From contig JAHEHC010000006.1 of NCBI GenBank assembly GCA_024644805.1, forward strand, positions 1 through 36,634: a DNA stretch of 36,634 nucleotides, in the 5' to 3' direction. Below the pieces are notes generated by a model. It worked only from the letters and a program-made list of their open reading frames with translations, had not been told where the DNA came from and searched no databases. Origin of the DNA: Flavobacterium sp. GTDB lineage: Bacteria; Bacteroidota; Bacteroidia; Flavobacteriales; Flavobacteriaceae. Below are positions 26,835-32,419 of this stretch, piece by piece; within the stretch, counting starts at the first letter, position 1, and each line of letters opens with the position of its first letter. The position numbers and the translations under genes are program-made.

Positions 26835-27296
26835 ATGAAATTAGATTCCATAGACCAGCAGTTGTTGGCTTTACTTCAGAAAGATTGCAAACAGACCAAT
26901 AAGGAACTTTCAGCGAAACTTGGATTATCGGTTACAGCGGTTTATGAACGGATAAAAAAGTTGGAGCGGGAAGGTGTGATCAACAAATATGTAAGCTTAC
27001 TGAACAAGGAGAAACTGGGGTTGGGTTTCGTTGTTTTCTGTCAGATCAAACTGGTCAAACATGCCAAAGAATACCTCACCGAATTCGAACGAGAAGTGAA
27101 GCAGTTGGATGAGGTCCTGGAATGCTATCACGTCAGTGGTGATTATGATTACCTGCTGAAGGTCATTGTCAAGGACATGCAGCATTATCGTTCCTTCATG
27201 GTCACCAAACTCACTACCATCCAACATATTGGAAGTACCCATTCCTCATTTAATATCAATGAGGTGAAACACACGACCGAGATCACACTGGGATAG
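26835..27296 (+). CDS. Lrp/AsnC family transcriptional regulator
   Basis: 153 aa; LDSIDQQLLALLQKDCKQTNKELSAKLGLSVTAVYERIKKLEREGVI and ECYHVSGDYDYLLKVIVKDMQHY. Confidence 0.95.
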   Translation: MKLDSIDQQLLALLQKDCKQTNKELSAKLGLSVTAVYERIKKLEREGVINKYVSLLNKEKLGLGFVVFCQIKLVKHAKEYLTEFEREVKQLDEVLECYHVSGDYDYLLKVIVKDMQHYRSFMVTKLTTIQHIGSTHSSFNINEVKHTTEITLG

Positions 27297-27300
27297 GAGT

Positions 27301-27454
27301 GAAGCACGAAGCTAAAAGTCTGAAGTCTGAAGTTAGAAGTCTGAAGTCAGAAGTCTGAAGTCAGAAGTCTGAAGTCAGAAGTCAGAAGTGAGAAGTTGGA
27401 AGTTAGAAGTTAGAAGTGAGAAGTTAGAAGTGAGCAGTCGGAAGTCAGAAGAAT
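27301..27454 (+). repeat. Tandem array of 22 uninterrupted 7-bp units, consensus GAAGTNN
   Basis: Parsed by hand: gaagcac gaagcta aaagtct gaagtct gaagtta gaagtct gaagtca gaagtct gaagtca gaagtct gaagtca gaagtca gaagtga gaagttg gaagtta gaagtta gaagtga gaagtta gaagtga gcagtcg gaagtca gaagaat. Confidence 0.97.
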
Positions 27455-27464
27455 AATTCCGCTA

Positions 27465-27548
27465 CCAGCTTCGTTCTTCCAGCTTCGTTCTTTCAGCTTC
27501 GTTCTTTCAGCTTCGTTCTTCCAGCTTCGTTCTTCAGGTTTCAGGCTT
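27465..27548 (-). repeat. Inverted second array: 12 seven-bp units on the minus strand, mostly alternating (G/A)AAGAAC-GAAGCTG
   Basis: Plus strand shows five copies of (C/T)CAGCTTCGTTCTT; minus strand reads gaagcct gaaacct (gaagaac gaagctg)x2 (aaagaac gaagctg)x2 gaagaac gaagctg. Confidence 0.93.
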
Positions 27549-27597
27549 CCTCTTCCAACTTATCCTTATTTTCTTTTCAACCAAATCAGGATTTAAG

Positions 27598-29065: not shown

Positions 29066-29608
29066 ATGAAAAAGATTTTAGCATTTGCAGGAAGCAACAG
29101 TAGTAAATCGATCAATCATCAATTGGTTACCTATACCGCATCTCGAATTGAAGGTCATCATGTAAACGTTATCAAGCTTACCGACTACCCATTACCACTT
29201 TACGGGATCGATCTGGAGCAAGAAGAAGGGTTTTCGAATGAGTTAAAAGCCCTTCATGAACTGATCAAAGAATCTGACGGACTGATCATATCGGTCAATG
29301 AGCACAATAGTGGTGTTTCAGCATTTTTTAAAAATACCACCGATTGGTTATCACGATTGGATAGAACTTTCCTTGAAAACAAGAAAATCCTTTTGATGTC
29401 ATCTTCCACTGGTGGCAGGGGTGCTTATTCAGCTTTGGATTTCGCAAAAAAAACCTTGCCTCGATTTGGAGCGGAGATCGTTGATACCTTTAGCTTTCCA
29501 AAATTCCATGATAATTTTTCAAAAGAGGAGAATACCATCACAGAAAGTGTACTTGAAGAATCTTTGAATGATTCCATTCTGAATTTTGTTCTCAGTTTGA
29601 ATGACTGA
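29066..29608 (+). CDS. NADPH-dependent FMN reductase family protein
   Basis: 180 aa flavodoxin-like fold; ILAFAGSNSSKSINHQLVTY, SVNEHNSGVSAFFKNTTDWLSR, SSSTGGRGAYSALD. Confidence 0.87.
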   Translation: MKKILAFAGSNSSKSINHQLVTYTASRIEGHHVNVIKLTDYPLPLYGIDLEQEEGFSNELKALHELIKESDGLIISVNEHNSGVSAFFKNTTDWLSRLDRTFLENKKILLMSSSTGGRGAYSALDFAKKTLPRFGAEIVDTFSFPKFHDNFSKEENTITESVLEESLNDSILNFVLSLND

Positions 29609-30906
29609 TGCGCTTAATTAAAAAACATCCTATAGTATTAACAGAGAGGTTGAAAAAACAACTTCTGTATTGGGCTCAACAATTCGAGGAAGTGATCTGG
29701 ATGGATTCGAACTCACATTCCGATCATCATGGTCGGTATCAGGCGATCCTTGCAGTTGATGCTCTGACCTCCATTAAGACCGATTTTCATAGTTCATTTA
29801 AGGAATTGGAGGAATACCAATCCACTATAAAGGACTGGTTATTTGGTTACCTAACCTACGATCTTAAGAACGATTTGGAAGATCTTGAATCCAATAACTT
29901 GGATCGGCTAAAGTTTCCCGATCTGTTTTTCTTCCAACCGAAAAGACTCTTTTTTTTCCATGAAGATCATGTTGAAATGCACTATTTGAATATGGTTGAA
30001 GAGGAAATGGAAGGGGACTGGAAGCAGATCAAAGATTATTATATCGATGAATCATCTTTCAATGAAAACAGATCGGAGGTGAAGATACATCTGAGAACTT
30101 CGAAGGATTCCTATTTTGAGAAGCTCAAGAACATACAATCTCATATTCAGCGTGGTGATATCTATGAGGCCAATTTCTGTCAGGAGTTCTATTCCGAAAA
30201 CACACCTATCGATCCGTTGCGAACGTATATCCATTTGAATCAGATATCGGAGCCACCTTTTGCGACTTTCCTGAAAATGGACGATCATTATGCCCTTTCA
30301 GCATCACCGGAACGATATCTGGCTAAAAAAGGGAACCAACTTATATCTCAACCCATAAAGGGGACAGCCAAACGACATAAGAATCAAGTAAAAGATCAGC
30401 AGATCAAAGAGCTGCTTAAAAATGACCCAAAGGAACGTAGTGAGAATATCATGATCGTCGATCTCGTTAGGAATGACCTCTCCCGAATTGCAGACAGAGG
30501 AAGCGTAACTGTACCAGAATTGTGTGAGGTCTATACATTCAAGCAGGTCCATCAACTGATATCAACCATTGCCTGTACGGTTTCCGATACGGTCTCTCCT
30601 TCGAAAGTACTGGAAAACACCTACCCGATGGGAAGCATGACTGGCGCTCCAAAGATATCTGCAATGAAGATCATAGAAACCAATGAAGATGCTAAGCGAG
30701 GATTGTATAGCGGTTCGATCGGATACATTTCACCTGATGGTGATTTTGATTTCAATGTGGTCATTAGGACCATCCTGTACAATCGTATCAAGCAATATGT
30801 GAGTTACTCTGTTGGTGGTGCGATCACATCAAGATCCATCCCTGAAAAAGAATATGAGGAATGCCTGATCAAGGCCAAGGCGATGAGAGAGGCCCTTGAG
30901 GGGTAG
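29608..30906 (+). CDS. pabB: Chorismate-binding protein / aminodeoxychorismate synthase component I
   Basis: 432 aa; YEANFCQEFYSE, LSASPERYLAKKGNQLISQPIKGTAKR, MIVDLVRNDLSRIA, PMGSMTGAPKISAMKIIE; start overlaps the upstream stop (TGATG). Confidence 0.9.
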   Translation: MRLIKKHPIVLTERLKKQLLYWAQQFEEVIWMDSNSHSDHHGRYQAILAVDALTSIKTDFHSSFKELEEYQSTIKDWLFGYLTYDLKNDLEDLESNNLDRLKFPDLFFFQPKRLFFFHEDHVEMHYLNMVEEEMEGDWKQIKDYYIDESSFNENRSEVKIHLRTSKDSYFEKLKNIQSHIQRGDIYEANFCQEFYSENTPIDPLRTYIHLNQISEPPFATFLKMDDHYALSASPERYLAKKGNQLISQPIKGTAKRHKNQVKDQQIKELLKNDPKERSENIMIVDLVRNDLSRIADRGSVTVPELCEVYTFKQVHQLISTIACTVSDTVSPSKVLENTYPMGSMTGAPKISAMKIIETNEDAKRGLYSGSIGYISPDGDFDFNVVIRTILYNRIKQYVSYSVGGAITSRSIPEKEYEECLIKAKAMREALEG

Positions 30907-30910
30907 GTAT

Positions 30911-30994
30911 AAAGTACAAAGCTGGAAGTAAGCAGTAAGCTGTAAGCAGAAAACAGTTAGCAGTTAGCAGTTAGCAGTTAGCAGTTAGAAGTAG
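30911..30994 (+). repeat. Second GAAGTNN-type heptad array, 12 units in phase
   Basis: aaagtac aaagctg gaagtaa gcagtaa gctgtaa gcagaaa acagtta gcagtta gcagtta gcagtta gcagtta gaagtag; begins 4 nt after the pabB stop. Confidence 0.93.
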
Positions 30995-31066
30995 GTCGCA
31001 TACTACCTGACAAATGAACTCACTAACTCAAAAACTAAAAGTCAAAAGTTTAATAAAACTATAGGA

Positions 31067-31095
31067 TTTGGTAACTCAAAAGTTACTTAGCTTTG
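31067..31095 (+). promoter_or_regulatory. Candidate promoter TTTG-N17-TAGCTTTG upstream of tilS
   Basis: -33 TTTG 31067-31070, -7 TAGCTTTG 31088-31095, ATG at 31109: good match to the Bacteroidota consensus. Confidence 0.7.
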
Positions 31096-31108: not shown

Positions 31109-32419
31109 ATGATTGAAAGGCTAAAAGACCATATCGCCACATCCTTTCCTTTTTTGAAGGAAAAAAATCTGCTGATCGCCTGTAGTGGTGGGGTAGATAG
31201 TGTGGTCCTATGTTATTTGATCAAGTCTCTGGACTATCAATTTTCAATTGCACATTGTAATTTTTCATTGAGGGGAAAAGAAAGTGATCTCGATGAAGAT
31301 CTGGTATCCGATCTGGGGGATAAATTATCGGTTCCAGTTTTCACAAAGACCTTTGATACACGATCCTATATTTCTGAAAATCAAATTTCCATACAAATGG
31401 CGGCTCGTGATCTGCGATATGAATGGTTTGAATCTCTTTGCCAGGAACAATCGTTCGATCATATTCTAACCGCACATCATCTGGATGACGATCTGGAAAC
31501 TTTCTTTATAAACCTTTCAAGAGGGACTGGAATCAGGGGATTGGCAGGTATACCGCAAATCAATGATAGAATAGTCAGACCTCTGTTGATCTTCAGTAAG
31601 GATGATATCGTTGATTTTGCAAGAGAAAAGGATCTGAAGTGGAGAGAGGACCAAAGCAATTCAAGGAATGATTATTTGAGAAATCAAATACGACATGAAC
31701 TAGTTCCGGAATTCATCAAACTCAATGAAACAGCATTAAAGAACTTTAGAAGAACCAAGGATCATTTGGGAGAAAGCCTTGATTTGATCGACGATTATTT
31801 GGTGTTGATCAGCAATTTGATCTGCACGGAGACCCAGGAAGGAATTCAATTTGATATAGTCAAGCTGAAGGATCTGCCCCATACCCATGCTGTACTTTAT
31901 GAACTATTATCACCATATGGTTTTTCAGCCTGGGAGGATATAGGAGATCTTTTAAATGCACAAACAGGAAAAATGATCTATTCCGGCTCCCATCGATTGA
32001 TCAAAGACCGCGATCGACTGATCTTATCAAAAATAGAACATACAGAGGCTGGTAAGGAGATCATTATTACAGGATCCGAAGAAGAGATAAACGCATCGGT
32101 CCATCTACAATTTGAAGAAGTGAATACCATCGATGAAACGAGCAAACGATCTATTTTTGTCGATAAGGATAAAGTGAAATATCCTTTGAAGATCAGACGT
32201 TGGAAGGAAGGGGATTCATTCTATCCATTTGGGATGAAAGGAAAAAAGAAATTGAGCAAGTTTTTTAAAGATGAAAAGTTATCTTTGCTTGCTAAAGAAA
32301 AAATTCGAGTATTGTTGAGTGACAATCAGATCGTTTGGGTAATCGGATTACGCCCCGATGACCGGTTCAAGATCGAGGACAATACGAAAAAGATCATAAA
32401 AATTACCTGGATTGACTAA
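31109..32419 (+). CDS. tilS: tRNA(Ile)-lysidine synthetase
   Basis: 436 aa; LLIACSGGVDSVVLCYLI PP-loop, AHHLDDDLETFFINLSRGTGIRGLAGI, FYPFGMKGKKKLSKFFKDEKLSLLAKEKIRVL. Confidence 0.95.
   Translation: MIERLKDHIATSFPFLKEKNLLIACSGGVDSVVLCYLIKSLDYQFSIAHCNFSLRGKESDLDEDLVSDLGDKLSVPVFTKTFDTRSYISENQISIQMAARDLRYEWFESLCQEQSFDHILTAHHLDDDLETFFINLSRGTGIRGLAGIPQINDRIVRPLLIFSKDDIVDFAREKDLKWREDQSNSRNDYLRNQIRHELVPEFIKLNETALKNFRRTKDHLGESLDLIDDYLVLISNLICTETQEGIQFDIVKLKDLPHTHAVLYELLSPYGFSAWEDIGDLLNAQTGKMIYSGSHRLIKDRDRLILSKIEHTEAGKEIIITGSEEEINASVHLQFEEVNTIDETSKRSIFVDKDKVKYPLKIRRWKEGDSFYPFGMKGKKKLSKFFKDEKLSLLAKEKIRVLLSDNQIVWVIGLRPDDRFKIEDNTKKIIKITWID

Follow-up and report, generated by a model that had tools for sequence, protein, structure and literature searches.

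Heptad array behind pabB as the probable 5' half of a copied intergenic repeat in a marine flavobacterium

Main finding

The array of 7-nt units that follows pabB in a marine Flavobacterium sp. is probably the 5' half of a composite intergenic repeat, which has been copied between loci, expanded by slippage and bounded by coding sequence, and which is mostly neutral or selfish. Copying shows in the 3' side of the array and in a downstream array of 8-nt units, not in the opening heptads. The composite is non-coding, and no encoded product or regulatory role was found for it. The analysis covers a stretch of 36,634 nucleotides (the window), the assembly from which it comes (2.2 Mb, 182 contigs, 87.6% complete) and genomes of related bacteria.

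Layout of the pabB–tilS region

The relevant features of the window are as follows.

26835-27296, gene of an AsnC/Lrp-type regulator, 5' of array 1
27301..27454, plus strand, heptad array 1, 22 units, beginning 4 nt past the stop of the AsnC/Lrp-type regulator gene
27459..27549, minus strand, array 3, inverted relative to array 1, alternating GAAGAAC/GAAGCTG with a period of 14
29608..30906, plus strand, open reading frame of pabB (aminodeoxychorismate synthase component I), stop codon TAG at 30904-30906
30911..30994, plus strand, heptad array 2, 12 in-phase heptads: a degenerate opening, ACAGTTA and four GCAGTTA, and GAAGTAG
30995..31001, plus strand, junction GTCGCAT with flanks AGTAGGTC...ACTACC
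31002..31041, plus strand, octad array ACTACCTG-ACAAATGA-ACTCACTA-ACTCAAAA-ACTAAAAG
31067..31095, plus strand, putative Bacteroidetes-type promoter of tilS, TTTG ... TAGCTTTG, 3' of both arrays
31109..32419, plus strand, tilS (tRNA-Ile lysidine synthase), the next gene

The best NCBIfam match of the pabB product was TIGR00553, whose 323.2 bits fall short of the 328.4 cut-off, and tilS matched TIGR02432 above its cut-off. The promoter was read by eye against the general Bacteroidetes consensus. A search for known RNA families in Rfam gave no match in the window.

Array 2 begins 4 nt after the pabB TAG, and its units 1-7 are AAAGTAC-AAAGCTG-GAAGTAA-GCAGTAA-GCTGTAA-GCAGAAA-ACAGTTA, followed by four exact copies of GCAGTTA and a final GAAGTAG (units 8-12). 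Eleven of the 12 heptads have the form RNAGNNN, the sole exception being GCTGTAA. The lag-7 identity of the array is 0.77; in 10,000 shuffles it averaged 0.29 and never exceeded 0.48. A four-unit RNAG heptad pattern matched the window 32 times where 0.05 matches were expected. The 12 in-phase heptads of the original prediction are thereby confirmed, and arrays 1 and 3 were likewise found as it had described them.

Past the junction, 3' of the heptads, lies the octad array (ACTNNNNN), which the original prediction did not include. At pabB this array is short, and its lag-8 signal alone is modest (P 0.0008).

Copying of the junction and octads

The last heptads, the junction and the octads of the pabB locus align with a locus on contig C144 (L068) over about 87 columns with a score of 48.5, while the best of 200 shuffles reached 23. 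The heptad frame itself contributes part of this score, and the junction and octads are the telling part. The junction and its flanks recur once on C144, and the same contig has a near match elsewhere. The five octads match the C144 octads, at an unlinked locus, at 36 of 40 positions in unit order; when units are drawn at random from the pool, 35 or more matches arise with a probability of about 5e-5 per comparison.

Similar octads are present in three congeners (G003, G004, G006), and in G003 and G006 they are preceded by CAGTNNN heptads. Besides its CAGTNNN heptads, G003 carries long mixed AACCAGA/AACTATA heptad arrays with a period of 35, together with AATCNNNN octads (L281). A hairpin, CTACCTGTCGGTAGACAGG, lies beside the octads in congeners.

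The opening units behave differently. The original prediction held that the three window arrays share a seed dimer while having amplified different units. The first three units of arrays 1 and 2 are identical at 14 of 21 positions, below the mean of 14.4 for unit triples drawn across arrays, and 66% of such triples score as high. RAAGYAC-RAAGCTR opens arrays 1 and 2, yet none of the 12 other arrays tested in the genome. When the genomic arrays were compared by first unit, no shared first units emerged: over 14 arrays their mutual similarity was slightly below that of random in-register units (permutation, P = 0.97). The seed dimer was rejected on this basis, and the shared opening of arrays 1 and 2 is the product of a biased heptad alone. 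In array 3 the dimer GAAGAAC-GAAGCTG is repeated inside the array as had been proposed, but it does not stand at the opening. What survives of the proposal is a single dispersed family with independent local expansion, as about a dozen other arrays have amplified different units. These arrays keep the GAAGNNN frame, with amplified units such as GAAGTTG, GAAGGTG, GAAGATG, GAAGTCA and GAAGTGA.

Distribution and polarity of the arrays

Pattern searches of all contigs and of stretches gave about 15 arrays of each kind, heptad and octad, which fill gaps between genes. Outside the window, heptad arrays lie on contigs C13, C15, C34 (two), C44, C47, C53, C56, C144 (two) and C180, with a short one on C143. 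With gene ends taken from mechanical ORF calls, 10 of 14 heptad arrays start between -7 and +10 nt from a co-oriented stop codon; if their placement and orientation in the gaps were random, about 0.6 of these ten arrays would be expected to do so. Octads often accompany the heptads. A four-unit octad pattern had 36 matches in the genome and its reverse none. In gaps that hold both kinds, the heptads come first and the octads second on the same strand, and the octads usually finish close to the next gene. A REP-like hairpin, CCTGCCCGAACCAAAGGGGCGGG, is found inside four heptad/octad composites (L061, L063, L065, L068), always in one orientation.

The polarity extends beyond this genome. In most arrays the AGT strand is the sense strand after stop codons, and ACT is read before the next genes. 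The 5' end of the AGT strand adjoins a gene in 17 of 18 cases in the own genome, in all seven in a 400 kb stretch of G031, and in 15/21 and 16/24 in the other samples, the last of which (the family sample) is not significant alone. Pooled without the own genome, these samples, which are not equally unbiased, give 38 of 52 (P 0.001).

Of 149 family genomes, each from a different genus, 74 have AGT heptad arrays of at least seven units. Among the flavobacteria sampled, intergenic tandem repeats mostly have a period of 7 or its multiples, and period 8 is the second commonest in the own genome and its congeners. In G036, which belongs to a different family of the order, TATCTTT heptads abut the end of a CAGGCAGG hairpin at several loci (L267-L273).

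The original prediction had also suggested a search for empty sites in sister species; at pabB, such sites were found in relatives of about 58-68% pabB identity. Among 68 loci of relatives in which a tilS homologue lies no more than 900 nt behind pabB, none had at least four consecutive AGT heptads in the gap. A few of these loci represent one genome present in both of two collections, and in some the gap contains another gene. For arrays 1 and 3 no empty site could be read, since the gene upstream of lpdA differs in the congeners.

Other repeats occupy this position in some relatives. In five congeners (L154, L158, L160, L162, L166) a repeat TTCCTGC...GCAGGAA, in some cases containing ...GGAGTCGAAGTATC..., is located right at the stop codon of pabB, and some more distant relatives carry short repeats of other kinds 3' of pabB, for example TTCAGTG heptads in Flavivirga sp. 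57AJ16 (L114).

Comparison with known repeats

REP palindromes and BIMEs are small dispersed intergenic elements. The present arrays resemble them in being dispersed and intergenic and in the REP-like hairpins of some composite copies; the pabB copy differs in having neither the REP hairpin nor a palindrome.

TAACTGA heptamers have been described, alongside other heptamers, in Beggiatoaceae, Cyanobacteria and Bacteroidetes (MacGregor 2015, PMC4679880). In F. litoralis, 12 of 14 sets precede a start codon in forward orientation, and another set, directly behind a stop, is reversed (TCAGTTA in sense). Relatives without the repeats keep the gene order (PMC4679880). Both these and array 2 are intergenic heptad arrays in Bacteroidetes, and GCAGTTA is one base off TCAGTTA (6/7). 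The orientation, forward before start codons with the single reversed set after a stop, also agrees in most arrays. Array 2 is not built from the exact TAACTGA/TCAGTTA unit, however. The BOGUAY TAACTGA repeat is a near-invariant unit that mostly precedes start codons, whereas the arrays here have a GAAGNNN frame with many variants, lie mostly after stops and are paired with octads.

A second system is the GGGNATC heptads, which Rehm 2015 (PMC4692102) describes as dispersed and intergenic in Xanthomonas and Nostoc. Of the two neighbouring ORFs, these arrays lie closer to the one at their 5' side, in either orientation of that ORF; they stand on the coding strand, overlapping stop codons or no more than 50 bp past them, and are under-represented between divergent genes. 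They contain G-tracts, form G-quadruplexes and tend to consist of four units. The flavobacterial heptads have the same polarity, with the array nearer the gene on its 5' side. Their units (GCAGTTA/GAAGNNN) as a rule have no GGG run, and they have an octad partner, whereas the sections consulted of PMC4692102 describe none.

In the survey of long simple sequence repeats of 5-11 nt by Mrazek 2007, as relayed in PMC4679880, heptads outnumber every other class in most genomes, and slippage is proposed. With tandem 7-nt units beyond chance, array 2 is itself a heptanucleotide repeat of this kind. It differs in that its family is specific to the genome, includes a second array made of octads and keeps a fixed orientation.

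Origin of the element

The element would run from a stop codon through AGT-core heptads, a short junction (in some copies with a REP-like hairpin) and ACT-core octads to the next gene. Its history may be described in four steps. A composite segment was copied from another intergenic site, as the C144 copy shows. Single units would then have been amplified in place via replication slippage or unequal recombination, to judge from the unit order, and the favoured unit would differ between loci because of this amplification. Coding sequence would form a hard left border, presumably through purifying selection, so that the arrays begin at the stop codon. At the pabB locus, the promoter of the next gene may have served as the right border. 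Directional growth, in which one end would be more homogeneous, was rejected (5 versus 5 arrays in the own genome and 13 versus 14 in others).

The position and polarity of the arrays are stricter than pure neutrality needs, and a functional 3'-end element, whether terminator, transcription insulator or mRNA 3' stabiliser between tandem and convergent genes, would account for both the stop-codon position and the AGT-then-ACT polarity. The heptads of Xanthomonas and Nostoc have the same polarity, and in Xanthomonas most of them are transcribed; arrays 1 and 3 together are able to fold into a long RNA hairpin (-100 kcal/mol, z -6.3). We nevertheless regard such a function as unlikely. When ten composites were folded, eight had z values of -0.5 to +2.1 and one of -1.6. 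The tenth, the pabB–tilS gap including the promoter region, reached -2.7, but array 2 and its octads alone gave -0.55, no better than shuffles. An RNA hairpin was rejected as a general function, since most composites fold like shuffles and arrays 1 and 3 are the exception. Relatives also do without the array at pabB, and the units vary between loci and species.

That each array arose in place from biased post-stop sequence, with no copying between loci, is consistent with opening units that share nothing beyond the common heptad frame and with the occurrence of heptad repeats in many unrelated bacteria. Such convergence is improbable given that the match between the window and C144 spans heptads, junction and octads and that octads are common to three congeners. 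We consider a REP/RAYT-type origin less plausible still, in which a Y1 (HUH) transposase would have mobilised REP palindromes and left the arrays as their tails or debris. This would fit the hairpins of uniform orientation in the four composites and those adjoining the octads in congeners, but most arrays, including array 2, have no such hairpin. A profile search for the Y1 transposase (PF01797) found no match in three genomes with arrays, namely the own genome (G000, 87.6% complete), G020 and G036. A copied composite with local expansion of its units is our preferred reading; the sequences show the copying and the position, and we infer the mechanism and the mostly neutral or selfish character.

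Implications

The repeat is not a new machine, and it reveals no new enzyme or pathway. The unrelated heptads of Flavobacteriaceae, Xanthomonas and Nostoc might share one polarity rule, with the array strand pointing outward from the nearest gene end. This idea is speculative and rather doubtful; it would suggest that a common process determines where period-7 repeats sit at gene borders and which way they face, and that in flavobacteria this process yields a copied two-part heptad/octad element. The repeat bears on the preference of bacteria for 7-base repeats, on how one unit comes to occupy many sites in a genome and on whether such arrays do anything. Drifting units, a shared junction and a family-wide orientation rule provide material to trace copying and expansion, and the orientation rule can be tested in culturable flavobacteria.
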